Shown: piece after piece, positions 35,685 through 46,549 of the stretch | How positions within the stretch are numbered: position 1 is the first letter of the stretch | Layout: the number at the start of each line of letters is the position of its first letter | Notes under the pieces: generated by a model | What the model was told of the DNA's origin: nothing | Databases searched by the model: none | Seen by the model: the letters and a program-made list of their open reading frames with translations, nothing else | Made by a program: the position numbers and the translations under genes | DNA from: Actinoalloteichus fjordicus | GTDB taxonomy: Bacteria; Actinomycetota; Actinomycetes; Mycobacteriales; Pseudonocardiaceae | Assembly (NCBI RefSeq): GCF_001941625.1 | Contig: NZ_CP016076.1 | Span: 6,680,001 to 6,744,000, forward strand | Reading direction: 5' to 3' | DNA length: 64,000 nt

Positions 35685-37346
35685 GTGACCGACGGCCCAC
35701 TGATCGTCCAGTCAGACAAGACGCTGCTGCTGGAGATCGACCACGCCCGATCGAACGACGCGCGGATCGCCATCGCGCCCTTCGCCGAGTTGGAACGCGC
35801 GCCGGAGCACGTGCACACGTATCGGATCACGCCGCTGGCGCTGTGGAACGCCAGGGCGGCGGGCCATGACGCCGAGCAGGTCGTCGACGTCCTCGTCCGA
35901 TACTCGCGGTATCCCGTTCCGCAGCCGCTGCTGGTCGACGTCGTCGACACGATGGGCCGGTTCGGCAGGCTACGGCTCGTCAACAGCCCGGTGCACGGCC
36001 TGGTCCTGGAGTCGCTCGACCGAGCCGTGCTCACCGAGGTCCTGCGGAACAAGAAGATCGCTCCGATGCTCGGCGATCGGGTCGACGACGACGTCACCGT
36101 CGTGCATCCCAGCGAGCGCGGCAGGCTGAAGCAGGCCCTGCTCAAGATCGGCTGGCCCGCCGAGGACCTCGCGGGTTACGTCGACGGCGAGGCCCATCCC
36201 ATCTCGCTGGCCCAGGACGGCTGGCAGCTTCGCGACTACCAGCGACAGGCCGTCGACGCCTTCTGGGCGGGCGGATCGGGCGTCGTGGTGCTGCCGTGCG
36301 GAGCGGGCAAGACGCTCGTCGGCGCTGCGGCGATGGCCGAGGCAAGCGCCACGACGCTGATCCTGGTCACCAACACGGTGGCGGGCAGGCAGTGGAAGCG
36401 CGAGCTGATCGCGCGGACCTCGCTGACCGAGGACGAGATCGGCGAGTACTCGGGGGAGCGCAAGGAGATCCGGCCGGTCACCATCGCCACGTACCAGGTG
36501 ATCACCCGCAAGTCCAAGGGCGAGTATCGGAACCTGGAACTGTTCGACTCCCGCGACTGGGGCCTGGTCCTCTACGACGAGGTGCACCTGCTGCCCGCGC
36601 CGGTCTTCCGGATGACCGCCGACCTCCAGTCCCGTCGCAGGCTCGGGCTCACCGCGACCCTGGTCCGAGAGGACGGCCGCGAAGGCGACGTCTTCTCGCT
36701 GATCGGCCCGAAGCGCTACGACGCGCCGTGGAAGGACATCGAGGCGCAGGGCTGGATCGCGCCTGCCGACTGCACGGAGGTCCGCGTCACGCTGACCGAG
36801 TCGGAGCGCCTGGCCTATGCCACGGCGGACCCGGAGGAGCGCTACAAGGTGTGCGCCACGGCGCGGACCAAGGTGCCGGTCGTGCAGGCGATCCTCGATC
36901 GGCATCCCGACGAGCCCTCGCTGGTCATCGGCGCCTACCTCGATCAGCTCGACGAGCTGGGCGAGGCGTTGAACGCGCCCGTGATTCAGGGATCGACCAA
37001 GAACAAGGAGCGGGAGGCCCTGTTCGAGGCGTTCCGGAAGGGCGAGCTGCGCACGCTGGTCGTGTCCAAGGTGGCCAACTTCTCCATCGACCTCCCCGAG
37101 GCCTCGGTCGCTATTCAGGTCTCCGGCACGTTCGGCTCGAGGCAGGAGGAGGCCCAGCGGCTCGGCCGGGTCATGCGGCCGAAGGAGGACGGCAGGCAGG
37201 CGCACTTCTACTCGGTGATCTCGCGGGACACCCTGGACACCGACTACGCGGCACACCGGCAGCGCTTCCTCGCCGAGCAGGGCTACGCCTATCGGATCGT
37301 GGACGCCGACGACCTGCTCGGGCCGTCGCTGCCGGACATCGCCTGA
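35685..37346 (+). CDS. DNA repair helicase XPB
   Basis: 553 residues. SF2 helicase motifs: Walker A LPCGAGKTLVG (about 206), ITRKSKGEY, DEVH box YDEVHLLPAPVF (D298), motif III GLTATLVREDG, and motif VI QRLGRVMRPKEDGRQ. N-terminal damage-recognition-like region (LIVQSDKTLLLEIDH through DTMGRFGRLRL). XPB unwinds DNA 3' to 5'; bacterial XPB occurs mainly in actinomycetes. Its associated C-terminal-domain protein is encoded at 23076. GTG start about 85 bases downstream of the MITE copy, which could affect its promoter. Confidence 0.95.
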   Translation: MTDGPLIVQSDKTLLLEIDHARSNDARIAIAPFAELERAPEHVHTYRITPLALWNARAAGHDAEQVVDVLVRYSRYPVPQPLLVDVVDTMGRFGRLRLVNSPVHGLVLESLDRAVLTEVLRNKKIAPMLGDRVDDDVTVVHPSERGRLKQALLKIGWPAEDLAGYVDGEAHPISLAQDGWQLRDYQRQAVDAFWAGGSGVVVLPCGAGKTLVGAAAMAEASATTLILVTNTVAGRQWKRELIARTSLTEDEIGEYSGERKEIRPVTIATYQVITRKSKGEYRNLELFDSRDWGLVLYDEVHLLPAPVFRMTADLQSRRRLGLTATLVREDGREGDVFSLIGPKRYDAPWKDIEAQGWIAPADCTEVRVTLTESERLAYATADPEERYKVCATARTKVPVVQAILDRHPDEPSLVIGAYLDQLDELGEALNAPVIQGSTKNKEREALFEAFRKGELRTLVVSKVANFSIDLPEASVAIQVSGTFGSRQEEAQRLGRVMRPKEDGRQAHFYSVISRDTLDTDYAAHRQRFLAEQGYAYRIVDADDLLGPSLPDIA

Positions 37347-39227: not shown

Positions 39228-39455
39228 ATGACAGAACACAGACTGGTCACCGACGCGAAGTCCCGGCTTCGAAGAATCCGTCGTAGCAGGCAGGATCGGA
39301 TGCTCGCAGGCGTGAGCGGCGGCCTCGGCACGGCCCTCGGCGTCGACCCGGCGCTGGTCCGCATCGGCTTCGTCGTGCTCAGCATCATCGGCCTCGGCCT
39401 CGGCGTGGCCGCCTACGCCGTCTGCTGGCTGATCATCCCGGAGGAGGACTACTGA
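39228..39455 (+). CDS. PspC domain protein
   Basis: 75 residues made up of one PspC domain: RQDRMLAGVSGGLGTALGVDPALVRIGFVVLSII GL then a membrane helix and CWLIIPEEDY. PspC proteins are inner-membrane partners in envelope stress responses. ATG start without a strong ribosome site. Its end overlaps the remnant of the hexosaminidase pseudogene on the other strand. Confidence 0.9.
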   Translation: MTEHRLVTDAKSRLRRIRRSRQDRMLAGVSGGLGTALGVDPALVRIGFVVLSIIGLGLGVAAYAVCWLIIPEEDY

Positions 39456-41362: not shown

Positions 41363-41946
41363 TCTTTGGCGGAATGGGCGGGTGGACACGGCGCGTCGGC
41401 GACTGCGGTCGGACCGCCGAGCGCCGTTCCCCCGAGGACTGGTGTGGCAGTCGACGGTCGACGGCATGGCCTGCTTCCCGACTGACGGTCGCGGCTGAGG
41501 ACCCGACGGGGAACCGCGATCCCCACCCTGTCGGGTCGCAGCCGCGTCGGCCGAGTCCGGCTGCCCGGCCGAGCCGGGAGGGGCGGTCTCACGGGCAGGC
41601 GAATCGTGCCCATCGCGGCAGAATCTCGGTGATCCTCGACAGTCCGGCAACCTCCCCGGAACCCCGGCTGAACTGGACAGACAGGTCCACCGTCGAGATC
41701 GGACCCACCCTCCGACGGAAAGAGTTCAAAAAAGTTTGCCCGCAGATGTATCTGGCGGCCGGTCGCTCCCTCCTGTCTCACAGGTCGTTCACACGGCCGG
41801 TGGGGGGAAGCCGCGGATCGCGGTGGCAGGGGGAGCGGCAGGAGTTCGCTTGGGGGAGCGAATGCCACACGCCGTTCGGCTGCCGTGGTCCGCGGCGCGG
41901 TCCCTTCGCGGATGGCTGGGGGTGTGAAGGGGCGGGGGGGGGGCAC

Positions 41947-42143: not shown

Positions 42144-42341
42144 GTGACCAGTTCCGAGAAGCAGCAGAAGGTCGACATCGAGGAGTTCGAGGCGGAGTTC
42201 CCGCCGGTCCAGGAGGACGCCGCAGGCGAGGCCGGTGCGGCGACCGAGACCGAGGAGCGGCCCGGCCGGGTGCCACCCCGCAAGCCGACCCCTGGCGGGG
42301 GCATTCAGGACCCGGTGAGCGAGCCCGGCAAGCTCAACTGA
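42144..42341 (+). CDS. Small acidic peptide linked to sigma/CHAT module
   Basis: 65 residues, GTG start with AGGGAGAAA upstream. The N-terminal half is strongly acidic (VDIEEFEAEFPPVQEDAAGEA) and the C-terminal half is Pro/Gly-rich (PGRVPPRKPTPGGGIQDPV), ending EPGKLN. No Cys, no membrane helix. A terminator separates it from the sigma gene. It is not a recognised RiPP precursor. Its place just before a sigma factor and a caspase-like CHAT gene makes it a possible substrate or regulator, which is inference. Confidence 0.65.
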   Translation: MTSSEKQQKVDIEEFEAEFPPVQEDAAGEAGAATETEERPGRVPPRKPTPGGGIQDPVSEPGKLN

Positions 42342-42424
42342 CCAACTGGTTTCTGTGATCAGTGCCACTAGTCCATTCGTGTGGCCGATGTATCTGGTTG
42401 AGATGTTGTCGCTCTTATCTACAT

Positions 42425-42462
42425 AGGCCGGTTCCGCCCCTACTGCGGGCCGGAACCGGCCT
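42425..42462 (+). terminator. Hairpin terminator after the 65-residue peptide gene
   Basis: AGGCCGGTTCCG pairs perfectly with CGGAACCGGCCT across a 14-base loop, followed by TTG. It lies between the peptide gene and the sigma operon, so read-through may set the ratio of the two. Confidence 0.7.
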
Positions 42463-42516
42463 TGCGGCGTCCTGGCTGAGACGATGGCGGACTGGGGGTC
42501 GGAAGGGGGAAGCAGC

Positions 42517-43119
42517 GTGAACCACACGCGGGCGGGCCAGTCAGAGCTGTCCTGGCATGAACTCGACGGCTATGAACGGCATGAGGCCTGTCTGATCGCG
42601 GCACGCGCGGGCGACCGCGATGCGCTGAATGCGCTGGTCACCGATCTGACCCCGTTGGTCTGGCGCGTCGCCAGGGCACGGGGTCTCAGTACTCCGGTGG
42701 CGGAAGACGTGGTGCAGACGGTCTGGCTGCTGCTACTCCGCAGCCTGCACTCGCTGGAAGACCCACGAGCGTTGGCAGCCTGGCTGATCACGACGACCCG
42801 GCGGGAAGCCATCCGATCCCTCCGTGGCGACCGAGACCCTTCATTGCCTGCCGACGTACTCGACGACCTACCCACGCAGCACCACCTGCCAGAGCCTGAG
42901 GCGCTGCGTCACGATCGTGATCGACAGCTCTGGGCGGCCTTTCATCGGCTGTCTGCGCGCTGCCAAGAGGTGCTGAGCCTGACGGTGTTGGCAGGCCGCG
43001 TGGAGTACCAGGGCGTCGCGGACGCACTGCAGATACCTCGAGGAAGTGTGGGACCGACGAGAGGCCGCTGTCTGACGCAGTTGCGGTCTCTGCTCACTGT
43101 GGAAGGAGGCTCACCATGA
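42517..43119 (+). CDS. ECF-type RNA polymerase sigma factor (copy 1)
   Basis: 200 residues. Region 2 is LVWRVARARGLSTPVAEDVVQTVWLLLLRSL; region 4 is LWAAFHRLSARCQEVLSL through IPRGSVGPTRGRCLTQLRSLL. The SVGPTRxRCLxxLR end is shared with the second sigma factor at 62902. The GTG at 42517 has GGAAGGGGGA 7 bases upstream and is preferred over the ATG at 42484. The stop overlaps the next gene's ATG by 4 bases. Probably controls its own operon; no anti-sigma factor of a known type is adjacent. Confidence 0.88.
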   Translation: MNHTRAGQSELSWHELDGYERHEACLIAARAGDRDALNALVTDLTPLVWRVARARGLSTPVAEDVVQTVWLLLLRSLHSLEDPRALAAWLITTTRREAIRSLRGDRDPSLPADVLDDLPTQHHLPEPEALRHDRDRQLWAAFHRLSARCQEVLSLTVLAGRVEYQGVADALQIPRGSVGPTRGRCLTQLRSLLTVEGGSP

Positions 43120-43628
43120 GTCCGACCGGGTACGGCTCCGGGCACCCCCCGGGCGGCGAAGATCCAGTTGACTCGTTTTATCAAGGAGACGTACTGCTGG
43201 CCGAGCTGGGCCAACTCTTGGACTACACCGAACCAGTGCCTGCAGGTCTGATCGAGCGGGCACAGTTCGCCATCGAACTGGATAACCTTGACGTGGAGGT
43301 CGGCCGTTGGGTCCGCCCTAAGGCGCTTGCTGGGGTGCGCGGTGAGGAGCCCAGCACGATGACCTTCACGGTCGGCGACCTCACACTGATGTTGACGCTT
43401 GCCCCCAGCGGTTCAGGTCATCGCTTCGACGGCTGGCTCGTGCCCGGCGGTCCACACATCGTGGAGGTGCGCGTCGCCGGGTACGAGTCCAGCAGGATCG
43501 CAGCCGACGAAGGGGGCCGGTTCGCCCTCGACATAGTGCCGAAAGGAACGACTCAGATCCTGGTCCATCTGAGTACGGTCGAGGGCAGGCCCGGCCGAAC
43601 CATCGCTACTCCCAGCATCGTCTTGTGA
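43116..43628 (+). CDS. Beta-sandwich (carboxypeptidase-regulatory-like) partner of sigma factor
   Basis: 170 residues. A short helical N-terminal segment (LLAELGQLLDYTEPVPAGLIERAQFAIELDNLDVEVGRW) is followed by a beta-rich part (TFTVGDLTLMLTLAPSG; VEVRVAGYESSRIAADEGGRFALDIVPKG), like carboxypeptidase-regulatory domains. Its ATG overlaps the sigma stop (ATGA). The same pair recurs at 62902-64000. Lack of a membrane segment argues against a classic anti-sigma, but translational coupling suggests direct interaction. Confidence 0.75.
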   Translation: MSPTGYGSGHPPGGEDPVDSFYQGDVLLAELGQLLDYTEPVPAGLIERAQFAIELDNLDVEVGRWVRPKALAGVRGEEPSTMTFTVGDLTLMLTLAPSGSGHRFDGWLVPGGPHIVEVRVAGYESSRIAADEGGRFALDIVPKGTTQILVHLSTVEGRPGRTIATPSIVL

Positions 43629-43741
43629 CATGACCACGGTGGGCGTGATACCGCAGGCTCACCGACGAAGCGGCGCGGGGATCGGGTGGGCCACACCACA
43701 CTGGTAGGGTCCGCTTCGCCCTTGTCCTTGCTACCGGAGCA

Positions 43742-46549
43742 ATGCAGACGGTGACTGGTCATGACAACCAAGTCAGGCTCCTGCGCCGAGCCGAAGGGCT
43801 GCGGACTGCTGCTGCGTCTGCCGCGTCGGCATACCGCCCAGCCGAGGCCAGTCGGCTCCTGCGCCATGCTCTGCGGCTCCTGGACAGCGGCGAGGCGAAG
43901 GGCCGCCTCGACGAGAATCTCACAGTAGCGTTCAACCGACTGCGAATTCGGCTGCTAGTCAGTCTGGCATATTCTCAGGACGCGACACGGAGCAACCGTC
44001 ACGGGTTGAGCATTCTGCGCTCTGCGCAATCCTTGATAAAGGCCCTTCCCGACGCCGGGCAACGCGCTCTGTTCCAAGCTATCGTCGACATCCAGCACGG
44101 ATCGATGCTTTCTCAGGCCGGCCAGAACGAGCTGGCGATAGACCGCCTCGATCAAGCTGTCACACTCCTTGAACAGACGGAGAGCGCAGACCTGGAAGAG
44201 GTGTCTCTCCTCCCTCGCGCCCTACTCAACCGCGCGCTTGCCTTCATCAGGGCAGAGGACCCCAAATCCGCCGTCAGGGATCTCGAACGGTGCCTGGCCT
44301 TGGCCGAAGCCAGCGGGTTGCCACTCATCATCGCGAAAGCCCAGCATAACCTGGGCGCCCTGTCGTTGAGAATGGGATCGATCCCAGAATCGATCCGCTA
44401 TTACGAACAGGCAAACCTGAGCTACAGCAACGTGGCTCCGAACCTGCTTCCCCATATCCAGATGGACCAGGCCGAGGCCCTGTTGGCAGGCGGCCTCGCC
44501 GAGGAGGCGGCGAAATACCTGGATGAGGCTTTACCTGTTCTGGCGCATGGCCGCGTACGACAGAATCTCGGCGAAGCCGAGAGTTTTCGCGCCATCGCAG
44601 CGTTGCTACTCGGCGATTCGACCACCGCCCGCAGGCTCGCGGCCTCTGCAGAACGACGAATGCTACGGCGCGGCAACCTCAGCTGGGCACGAATGGCCGC
44701 TCTCACGCGACTACGCGCCGACACCGCCACAGCCTTCCGCACCGGCCAGGTCAGTGCAGGGCTCCACCGACGCGCATTGCGGCTCGCTGACCGGCTGACG
44801 GAACTGAAGCTCACCGACGAATCCGGGGTGGCCCGATCGTTGGCGGTGCGGGCAGCACTCCGACTGGGCAGGCTCGACGTGGCGGCGGCAGAACTGGCGC
44901 GGGTTCCCCGTCCCCGGCAGATCACTCCGATCGACCACCGGATGCTCCTGCGGCTCTCGCGGGCCGAGCTGGCCGTGATGCAGGGCGATCGACGGCGGGC
45001 CCTCGCCCAGGCGCGCGCCGGTCTGGCGGAGTTGGGGCGGATTCGCGACCGGATGGGCGGGCTCGACCTGGTCAGCGGCACCGCCGTGCACGGCAGGGAA
45101 CTCGGTGAACTGGCGATCCGGCTGGTCCTCGACCCCACCCGTGGCCGGGTCGATGCGGGCAGGCTCTTCAGTTGGTTGGAACGGACGCGAGCACAGGTGT
45201 ACCGGTATCAACCGCAGCCGCCCATCGCGGACCCGGTGCTCGCCGAGCGAGTCGACGACTATCGCGTGCTGAGCAAGGAGTTGCAGCAGGCCCGGCTGGA
45301 CGGCCGGAACCCCGGCGAGCTGGCGACTCGCCATGCCGCCCTCCAGCGGGAGATCACCCGGCTCGGGTGGCAGTCGAACCTGTGGGGCAGCCCTACCCCC
45401 ATCGCCACGCTCGCCGACGTGGCTCGGCACCTCGGTGATCGGGCGTTGGTGAGCTTCGCCGTCTCCGACGGGAATGCGGTGGCGGTGGTGATCGTCGAGG
45501 GTCGAGCCCGGCTGGTCCGGCTCGGGCCCGCAGTGGAGATCATGGCCGCCGCCCGTGAGCTGCACGCCGACCTCGACGCGCTCGCTCCGGACCACCTGTC
45601 CGGCCCCCTGGTCGCGGTGATCGCGGGTTCGGCACGCCGCCGCGCCGAACGGCTGGACGAGAAGCTGCTCAGCCCATTGGTCGGTCTTCTCCAACACCGT
45701 GAGCTGATCATCATTCCCACCGGGGCGCTGTACGCGGTCGCGTGGGGGACGCTGCCTTCGATGCACGGCCGGTCCCTGACGGTGGCGCCCTCCGCGACGG
45801 CATGGCTGACTGCCGACCAGAGAGCCGAGCACGGTCCCGACCATGTACCCCCCGGACGGGCGGCTTCCGAGGTCCCGAAAGACCACGTCACCGAAACGAC
45901 TGCCGGGCACGCCGCCGGGCCGAGCGCAGGCCGAGCCGTGGATCAGAGCTGGCAGGCCGCGCCGGGCAGCCGAAACGGTCGGGCCGACGGGACGCGCGGC
46001 GGCGGCACGGACGACGGTCACGTCGTCCTGATCAGCGGCCCGGATCTGCTCGGCGCTGTGGGTGAGGTCGCCGGGCTCCGCACGCACCATCCGGACGCCC
46101 GGGTGCTGGCGGGTCGACAGGCGACCGTCGGAGCGGTCCTCGAAGCGCTCGACGGAGCCCGGCTGGCCCATGTGGCCGCGCATGGTGCACACGAGTCCGA
46201 GAACGCGATGTTCTCTCGGCTCGAACTCACCGACGGGTCGCTGTTCGCGCATGAGACGGCACGGCTGCGCCGTGCGCCGGAACGGGTGGTGCTCGCCGCC
46301 TGTGAGCTGGCGCTCAACCGCATCCGGCCCGGCGACGAGGCGTTGGGCTTCGCGGGCGCCTTACTGGCCAGCGGGTCCCGCACCGTGATCGCCGCGACGA
46401 GCAAGGTCGGCGATCAGGCGGCCGCCGACACGATGGCCGAGTTCCACGGACTGCTCGTCCAGGGACGCCCGCCCGCTGCGGCGCTGGCCGAGGCCGTCGC
46501 CCGCGAGCCGCTGCGGCGCCCCTTCGTCTGCCTAGGCTCCGGCACCTGA
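43742..46549 (+). CDS. TPR and CHAT (caspase-like) domain protein
   Basis: 935 residues. Residues 1 to about 450 are helical repeats of TPR type (RALLNRALAFIRAEDPKSAVRDLERCLALAEASG; AQHNLGALSLRMGSIPESIRYYEQAN). The C-terminal CHAT domain (about 560-935) has the caspase-type dyad: His814 in HVAAHGAHESENAMFSRLEL and Cys854 in VVLAACELALNRI. Both are intact, so it may be an active protease. A low-complexity insertion of about 70 residues (about 695-760) interrupts the domain. Third gene after the sigma and beta-sandwich genes. Target unknown. Confidence 0.9.
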   Translation: MQTVTGHDNQVRLLRRAEGLRTAAASAASAYRPAEASRLLRHALRLLDSGEAKGRLDENLTVAFNRLRIRLLVSLAYSQDATRSNRHGLSILRSAQSLIKALPDAGQRALFQAIVDIQHGSMLSQAGQNELAIDRLDQAVTLLEQTESADLEEVSLLPRALLNRALAFIRAEDPKSAVRDLERCLALAEASGLPLIIAKAQHNLGALSLRMGSIPESIRYYEQANLSYSNVAPNLLPHIQMDQAEALLAGGLAEEAAKYLDEALPVLAHGRVRQNLGEAESFRAIAALLLGDSTTARRLAASAERRMLRRGNLSWARMAALTRLRADTATAFRTGQVSAGLHRRALRLADRLTELKLTDESGVARSLAVRAALRLGRLDVAAAELARVPRPRQITPIDHRMLLRLSRAELAVMQGDRRRALAQARAGLAELGRIRDRMGGLDLVSGTAVHGRELGELAIRLVLDPTRGRVDAGRLFSWLERTRAQVYRYQPQPPIADPVLAERVDDYRVLSKELQQARLDGRNPGELATRHAALQREITRLGWQSNLWGSPTPIATLADVARHLGDRALVSFAVSDGNAVAVVIVEGRARLVRLGPAVEIMAAARELHADLDALAPDHLSGPLVAVIAGSARRRAERLDEKLLSPLVGLLQHRELIIIPTGALYAVAWGTLPSMHGRSLTVAPSATAWLTADQRAEHGPDHVPPGRAASEVPKDHVTETTAGHAAGPSAGRAVDQSWQAAPGSRNGRADGTRGGGTDDGHVVLISGPDLLGAVGEVAGLRTHHPDARVLAGRQATVGAVLEALDGARLAHVAAHGAHESENAMFSRLELTDGSLFAHETARLRRAPERVVLAACELALNRIRPGDEALGFAGALLASGSRTVIAATSKVGDQAAADTMAEFHGLLVQGRPPAAALAEAVAREPLRRPFVCLGSGT

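Follow-up and report, generated by a model that had tools for sequence, protein, structure and literature searches.

A TPR-CHAT protease-like protein and a linked candidate client accompany an ECF sigma factor and its coupled beta-sandwich protein in Actinoalloteichus fjordicus and other actinobacteria

The described systems closest to the one reported here place a protease in the company of an extracytoplasmic function (ECF) sigma factor. ECF54 loci encode an ECF sigma factor without a classical anti-sigma factor; domains of the CHAT, subtilase, and carboxypeptidase types are encoded nearby, and proteolytic control has been proposed for these loci (PMC8999054, Int J Mol Sci 2022). The type III-E Craspase locus combines the tetratricopeptide repeat (TPR)-CHAT protein Csx29, the ECF-like CASP-sigma, and a partner, Csx30 (PMC10028731), and CalpL, CalpT, and CalpS are a protease, an anti-sigma factor, and an ECF sigma factor that constitute a three-part signaling unit (PMC11417357). 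We analyzed a stretch of 64,000 nucleotides (the window) from the actinobacterium Actinoalloteichus fjordicus, positions 6680001-6744000 of its single-contig, 7.12-Mb genome (G000), in which four consecutive genes encode a 65-residue acidic peptide, an ECF sigma factor, a beta-sandwich protein, and a TPR-CHAT protein. The module of the window has an ECF sigma factor, a CHAT protein, and a beta-sandwich protein, the last of which we presume to correspond to the "carboxypeptidase" of the ECF54 loci, and it contains no subtilase.

This array is a Pseudonocardiaceae form of a class-wide actinobacterial locus consisting of sigma factor, beta-sandwich protein, TPR-CHAT protein, and client. A preliminary description, made from the sequence of the window alone, had placed the four genes in a row and taken them for one module; all four are confirmed on the + strand, and the array is conserved in relatives, among which the order sigma/beta-sandwich/CHAT is common. 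Homologs of the beta-sandwich protein occur in 34 of 60 genomes of a relatives set and in 89 of 393 genomes of a class set (counting A. fjordicus itself in each), nearly always with a sigma gene alongside, and 41 of the 60 class-wide loci fetched contain the beta-sandwich gene together with TPR-CHAT and an S8 subtilase. As this neighborhood matches the published ECF54 remark, the kind of locus is known, and the window represents a variant of it without the subtilase.

The client is linked to the CHAT gene rather than to the sigma factor. Among 75 scorable loci (8 of 83 were dropped because they lie at contig edges), a client, either a peptide or a papain-like protease, is present in 42 of the 43 with an adjacent CHAT gene and in 9 of the 32 without one, a post-hoc pattern in which two loci (L181 and L117) were scored as client-less despite a core-bearing frame and one match (L115) is probably due to chance. 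Seven of the nine client-positive loci without adjacent CHAT carry the papain-like protease, five of them together with a core peptide. Joint loss of CHAT and peptide, considered for Lentzea, some Saccharothrix, and others, was rejected: a TPR-CHAT relative is encoded somewhere in all 20 genomes checked, 16 of which have no CHAT gene beside the sigma/beta-sandwich pair. The CHAT-client unit has been relocated, not lost, and the remnants that persist beside sigma in three loci fit the decay of an old copy (a broken peptide frame and CHAT fragments in L111, a retained core with only a TTG start in L117, and a degenerate core in L146).

Twenty further CHAT loci (L290-L309) were viewed over 3 kb on the 5' side and 0.5 kb on the 3' side of the CHAT gene. 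Within this stretch the pair is absent from 18 and present, together with an S8 gene, in L307 and L309. A client gene lies 5' of CHAT in 17 of the 18 pair-less loci; 14 of these clients are peptides (13 called and one, in L303, found on re-reading), and three are S8 subtilases (L291, L294, and L306, the last 838 nt away). L308 shows no client 5' of CHAT in the stretch seen, and L304 contains a sigma-like gene whose partner was not called. Five other relocated CHAT loci have peptides (L273, L274, L275, and L277) or an S8 subtilase (L276). Since clients adjoin CHAT even where the sigma/beta-sandwich pair is missing, the client appears to travel with CHAT, and of the options raised in the preliminary description, action of CHAT on the peptide is the one that the comparative evidence favors. 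We consider it probable that the two are an enzyme and its target. Separately, in the loci of family f32 (L278-L280 and L285-L287), sigma/beta-sandwich and CHAT/subtilase occupy different chromosomal sites, with the subtilase divergent from CHAT and a HAD phosphatase-like gene nearby. The A. fjordicus genome also encodes a second, weaker CHAT match (G000 4332631-4333434, L002; 30.6 bits), beside which no client was recognized within the 3.8 kb seen.

The proposed client in the window is the 65-residue peptide (42144..42341, +), acidic as had been noted (14 Asp/Glu and 7 Lys/Arg). Its C-terminal core, GGGIQDPVSEPGKLN (42294..42338, +), is, with the N-terminus, the best-kept part among three congeners aligned. 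The peptide is conserved with the module, being encoded at the same place in both congeners searched with 58% and 56% identity, and the ratio of nonsynonymous to synonymous substitution rates (dN/dS) in three congener pairings is 0.42, 0.42, and 0.69. It matches no NCBIfam family, and sequence searches of 60 genomes returned no homolog outside the genus, other matches being weak and scattered; its wider kin are consequently recognized by position, make-up, and core only. Short genes in the client position do occur in other genera, and Pseudonocardiaceae loci with an adjacent CHAT have, 5' of sigma, a short gene whose product combines a core with a body that is acidic or rich in Pro. These cores include GGMPDPFSPPP in Gandjariella, GHHQTHS in Saccharothrix, a repeated NGGIPHAET in Kutzneria, and either DGNWEPNGTKPPVN or a repeated TGNWEPNTPPP in Amycolatopsis. 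Among the 18 peptides of relocated loci, a tandem core is visible by eye in seven (L274, L277, L292, L295, L296, L297, and L299), with four copies of NGGPYKPLDEP in L277, and the peptides of L290 and L293 have a single NGGPY core.

In some Amycolatopsis and Prauserella loci the sigma operon is preceded by genes for a papain-like protease, a chagasin-like inhibitor, and a protein that is rich in GW or in repeats. The arrangement is present in L148 (7052-9286), the only such locus run against Pfam (papain PF00112, 1.4e-33; chagasin-like PF09394, 5.3e-15), and also in L122, L154, L165, L170, L174, and L175. The papain-like protease has no signal peptide by eye, and it and the repeat protein both end in similar GW-rich domains of ~70 residues.

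The subtilase form of the locus carries comparable repeats. PF00082 (peptidase S8), tested on L091 and L086, scored 45.2 and 86.2 bits (cut-off 21.8), and other S8 proteins were assigned by a model built from six such loci. Removal of near-identical sequences left 71 proteins, 68 of them with the His motif; those scoring above 250 to a model from six S8 proteins, five of which bear repeats, were termed long-type. In 31 of 35 long-type proteins a four-letter word is repeated within the 70 residues before the catalytic Asp, compared with 2/26, 3/34, 3/35, 2/35, 0/35, and 0/35 for the same count in other segments of these proteins and 2/33 before the catalytic Asp of the remaining S8 proteins. 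Exact copies include GYGDGV seven times (L191), GAPFTR seven times (L220), SNPFHA five times (L211), NPHGRT (L193) and GNPLTR (L200) four times each, and NPFSRT three times (L194). Repeats both at the border of a catalytic domain and in stand-alone peptides, in each case beside CHAT, are what one would expect of a recognition or cutting site. L091 and L093 each contain two subtilases and two TPR-CHAT genes per module, one subtilase with a single core and the other with three copies. In L226-L236 and L242, CHAT lies on the opposite strand from a shorter subtilase, and several of these subtilases have a CCPGDEPVPVP-like stretch.

A tree of the CHAT proteins separates the two client forms. It retains 81 of 112 sequences (redundant and divergent ones were dropped), of which one is unlabeled, ten were labeled by hand, and one label (L150) depends on a doubtful 66-residue call. 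The 51 peptide-type rows, including those with peptide and papain, fall on one side of a branch and the 29 S8-type rows on the other, with an SH-like approximate likelihood ratio (SH-aLRT) value of 90 that is not starred; client type requires one change on the tree, compared with a mean of ~24 after shuffling. The rows that adjoin the peptide side come from loci of the same family in which the client is a subtilase (L276, L291, and L294). Under a midpoint root, which serves for drawing only, a single swap from subtilase to peptide would be the simplest history.

The TPR-CHAT protein (43742..46549, +; 935 residues) matches CHAT PF12770 with an E-value of 2.3e-29 (103.2 bits, cut-off 24). The dyad proposed earlier is intact, with His814 (codon 46181..46183, +) and Cys854 (codon 46301..46303, +) where they had been placed, and among 118 aligned homologs His is present in 109 (eight gaps and one Gln) and Cys in 107 (11 gaps). 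The structure model has a mean predicted local distance difference test (pLDDT) score of 79.9, with low values at residues 815-834 and 855-868, which adjoin the dyad residues. It consists of 21 TPR-type helices (residues 6-463) and a separase-like protease half (~557-935) whose closest fold is separase (Z 27.9, 2.8 A over 308 residues). The TPR half matches LGN (Z 25.4), Rap (Z 20.9), and NprR (Z 20.1), which would put the modeled domain in the range of TPR proteins that bind peptides or motifs. Foldseek also returned an odd link between the CHAT model and the transmembrane anti-sigma factor DdvA (8rw5), with an E-value of 8e-9 and a large root-mean-square deviation (rmsd).

The call of an ECF sigma factor (42518..43119, +) is upheld by a sigma70-ECF match of 69.6 bits (2.3e-19, cut-off 42.9, residues 46-203); in Pfam, Sigma70_r2 is above the cut-off (1.7e-12) and r4 below it (12.8 vs 24.1). 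Of two possible starts, GTG 42518 (200 residues) is more likely than ATG 42484 (211 residues), because the ATG is out of frame in the congeneric locus L064 and the GTG is kept there with the purine-rich stretch that precedes it. The beta-sandwich gene (43116..43628, +; 170 residues) is translationally coupled to sigma, as the preliminary description had it: the two overlap by 4 nt in the window and in 124 of 163 pairs, and 160 of 163 pairs lie within 30 nt of each other. This tight pair persists without an adjacent CHAT gene in 32 of the 75 scorable loci and so needs no CHAT beside it. The AlphaFold2 model of the beta-sandwich protein (mean 73.4) has a helix hairpin (residues 18-37 and 45-56), a low-confidence segment (58-76), and strands between residues 80 and 164. 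Fold matches, which span residues 79-170, indicate a common FN3/Ig/CBM56-like arrangement that is not diagnostic (best Z 8.7), and comparison with solved chains gave three weak profile matches (E at least 0.55), none of them called an anti-sigma factor. From the coupling and the modeled layout, our guess is that the protein may bind sigma.

A candidate promoter for this sigma factor, bipartite and of ECF type, precedes both the peptide gene (TGTATCT-N16-CTCCT, 41747..41774, +) and the sigma operon (TGTATCT-N16-CTCTT, 42389..42416, +). By word count, TGTATC occurs 5' of sigma in the sense orientation in 86 of 114 regions and on the other strand in 3, and the full strict site, TGTATCY-N16-CTCYT, is found there in 56 of 83 loci in sense and 0 of 83 in antisense. 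It was seen in nine named genera in addition to that of the window, and in none of the few loci of Kibdelosporangium, Actinosynnema, Actinocrispum, and Solihabitans. These two copies are the only strict matches in the 7.12-Mb genome, where a reversed-pattern control has one, and with one mismatch allowed the window yields 2 sites against 0.14 expected. Both copies are kept in both congeners, which have one or two further matches elsewhere; the extra match common to both (L288 and L289) lies inside a called coding frame. The strict site is present in 22 of 60 relatives' genomes, and 12 of these 22 have at least one site within 5 kb of a beta-sandwich gene, with other sites elsewhere. Based on placement and conservation, we infer that the motif is the promoter read by the linked sigma factor. 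A wide sigma regulon is rejected for the strict motif, given two genome matches and one in the control; a looser form, TGTATCH-N16-CTC, has 10 matches vs 5 in its control, so a few more targets are possible.

In class-wide loci a relaxed site, GTATCH-N15-17-CTC, is found 5' of sigma or S8 genes in 31 of 60 loci in sense and 3 of 60 in antisense; outside this set it also precedes the S8 genes of the relocated loci L291 and L294. Class-wide it is absent in sense 5' of 17 beta-sandwich genes and 47 CHAT genes; antisense copies 5' of 8 of the 47 CHAT genes are presumed to serve divergent S8 genes. Just 3' of promoter copy 2 in the window, close to where the sigma transcript would be expected to begin, lies a hairpin of 15 pairs (42426..42461, +) that three congeners retain, two of its pairs showing changes in both partners. 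With three sequences the evidence is weak: 46 of 500 shuffles do as well, another measure is matched by all 500, and sliding the hairpin by -1 gives a higher covariation score. It could stabilize or attenuate the sigma message.

We interpret these loci, with modest confidence, as a two-part circuit. The first part would be the ECF sigma factor and its co-translated beta-sandwich partner, probably the regulator of sigma; by reading a private promoter before its own operon and the peptide gene, sigma would create a local positive loop, and we think it likely that the pair can be separated from CHAT and acts as a regulator, with this promoter as its means of driving both the client and the CHAT operon. 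The second part would be the separase-like TPR-CHAT cysteine protease and its client, which bears a fast-diverging and often tandem core, located either in a stand-alone peptide (mostly in Pseudonocardiaceae) or in the S8 linker that separates the catalytic domain from the N-terminal part. CHAT may use its TPR half or its protease half to recognize the core, which it most likely then cuts. For a subtilase client the cut would free an active second protease, and for a peptide client it would use up the peptide or set it free. Between cutting of the client and mere binding or inhibition, we lean towards cutting. More doubtful is a bolder version in which a dormant subtilase has a lineage-specific core in its linker that CHAT cuts, setting off a caspase-to-subtilisin cascade, the Pseudonocardiaceae lost this executioner once and kept the peptide as a substrate or securin-like brake, and the strict sigma regulon is the locus itself.

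The preliminary description had offered first the release or destruction of a sigma partner by CHAT. In such an arrangement CHAT would cut the beta-sandwich protein as an anti-sigma factor and free sigma, with the peptide as one gene of the sigma regulon. There is precedent in Csx29, whose substrate Csx30 inhibits an ECF-like sigma factor (PMC10028731), and in CalpL, which cuts the anti-sigma factor CalpT (PMC11417357). The common sigma/beta-sandwich/CHAT order and the modeled layout of the beta-sandwich protein, in which a linker of weak prediction connects a helical N-terminus to a distinct C-terminal domain, would suit it as well. However, the 32 of 75 loci with a pair and no adjacent CHAT tell against this as the first choice, relocated CHAT genes retain the client and not the beta-sandwich gene, and in some loci (L226-L236) CHAT is on the other strand. 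We regard this mechanism as unlikely, though it is not exclusive of the two-part circuit. The closest fold of the protease half, separase, raises a further alternative: a short, acidic, co-encoded, disordered pseudo-substrate could keep CHAT inactive, like securin, until it is removed on a signal, and a promoter type common to the peptide and the CHAT operon is what an enzyme and its brake might share. The comparable core in the subtilase linker suits a substrate better than an inhibitor, and we would give such a brake only a minor chance.

A neutral origin of the repeats, as linker expansions by slippage, with the peptide being like a ribosomally synthesized and post-translationally modified peptide (RiPP), or some other small product that has nothing to do with CHAT action, would account for units that are near-identical within a gene and different between lineages, and for the several peptides without a tandem core. 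It accords poorly with the confinement of long-type subtilase repeats to one place and with their recurrence in unrelated proteins beside CHAT; moreover, no modification enzyme was noticed by eye among the neighbors (no search was made), and the peptide has no NCBIfam family to place it. We consider this the least probable of the alternatives. Returning to CHAT and client as enzyme and target within a sigma-driven circuit, a number of observations weigh against it. The full set was not called in 19 of the 60 class-wide loci, most of which have sigma and beta-sandwich genes alone, and homologous loci are kin, several from one genus, so the counts are not of independent events. The cores have no fixed residue at a position fit for a strict cutting site, and CHAT may therefore bind without cutting; the core pattern was devised after viewing the peptides, so the comparison of 42/43 with 9/32 is no clean test. 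Eleven of the 18 relocated-locus peptides lack a tandem core; among the 18, the peptides of L275 and L300-L304 stand apart from the rest in being rich in Cys and His. On the subtilase side, the S8 proteins of divergent-CHAT loci (L226-L236 and L242) lack repeats, a repeat-bearing subtilase in L207 has its CHAT ~4 kb away rather than adjacent, and the long-type class leans towards repeats because its model is mostly repeat-bearing, the position effect being independent of that definition. Finally, no strict site accompanies the relocated CHAT-client loci (0/5 in L273-L277 and 0/20 in L290-L309), so control of these units by the sigma factor is not evident.

The module is flanked upstream by a cutC-like gene and downstream by groEL and a Ser/Thr kinase gene (names read from the proteins). 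Among seven loci compared, groEL is downstream in six and the cutC-like gene upstream in five, and these recurring surroundings suggest that the module resides stably in the chromosome; the neighbors are different in Amycolatopsis and Prauserella. A small PspC-domain protein is encoded upstream (window 39228-39455), with look-alikes upstream in L085, L121, and L130. A conflict or cell-death function, suggested by the CHAT domain in the preliminary description, is possible, as is a part in a stress response, in development, or in phage defense, and the findings favor none of these outcomes over the others. Run against the four module proteins, the PADLOC models gave a sole match, of sigma to Cas6 (E 0.027), and absence from this library excludes no role. 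Typical loci are also found in L149, titled Rhodococcus rhodnii, and L167, titled Candidatus Melainabacteria, whose labels look wrong or whose bins look mixed.

The ECF54 neighborhood, sigma control by a TPR-CHAT protein in CRISPR systems, and protease/anti-sigma/sigma units are already known. Like Craspase, the window has TPR-CHAT, ECF sigma, and partner in one locus, and Csx29 aligns with the window CHAT model over 485 residues (Z 23.6, rmsd 11.7 A). It differs from Craspase in its proposed linked target, a peptide here and a subtilase in other loci, and in scoring 16.8 bits to the Csx29 family NF041237 of NCBIfam (cut-off 300). No CRISPR-like array was found between window positions 36000 and 52000, where direct repeats of at least 22 nt at most 200 nt apart form three two-copy families only, and no Cas gene was recognized by eye among the genes called there (no cas search was made). 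CalpL is a Lon protease with a SAVED sensor, CRISPR-linked and unlike the window CHAT, and EACC2-caspase systems with an ECF sigma factor and a TPR protein differ in domain make-up (EACC2 and TRADD-N; PMC8195603, eLife 2021). The protease half superposes on separase, and an acidic partner is encoded with it, which invites comparison with securin; the window protein is bacterial and 935 residues long.

Our analysis adds to the preliminary description the pair of promoter sites, the loci with a subtilase as client, and the tandem repeats. Neither a peptide client nor repeats in a linker, a swap of clients, or a promoter is mentioned in the excerpt of the ECF54 report (PMC8999054), and none was met in our literature searches, which did not use repeat or promoter terms; as far as the literature was searched, these four features are new. 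If CHAT cuts the linker repeats, the loci would constitute a CRISPR-free protease cascade that has its own transcription loop and is distributed across a bacterial class. Their naturally occurring enzymes and cores would then form a series that could reveal the specificity of CHAT. Subtilase and peptide clients would be matched natural experiments in which one enzyme family has either a subtilase or a peptide as its output. These loci turn a one-line remark on ECF54 context into a concrete, testable enzyme-client pair.

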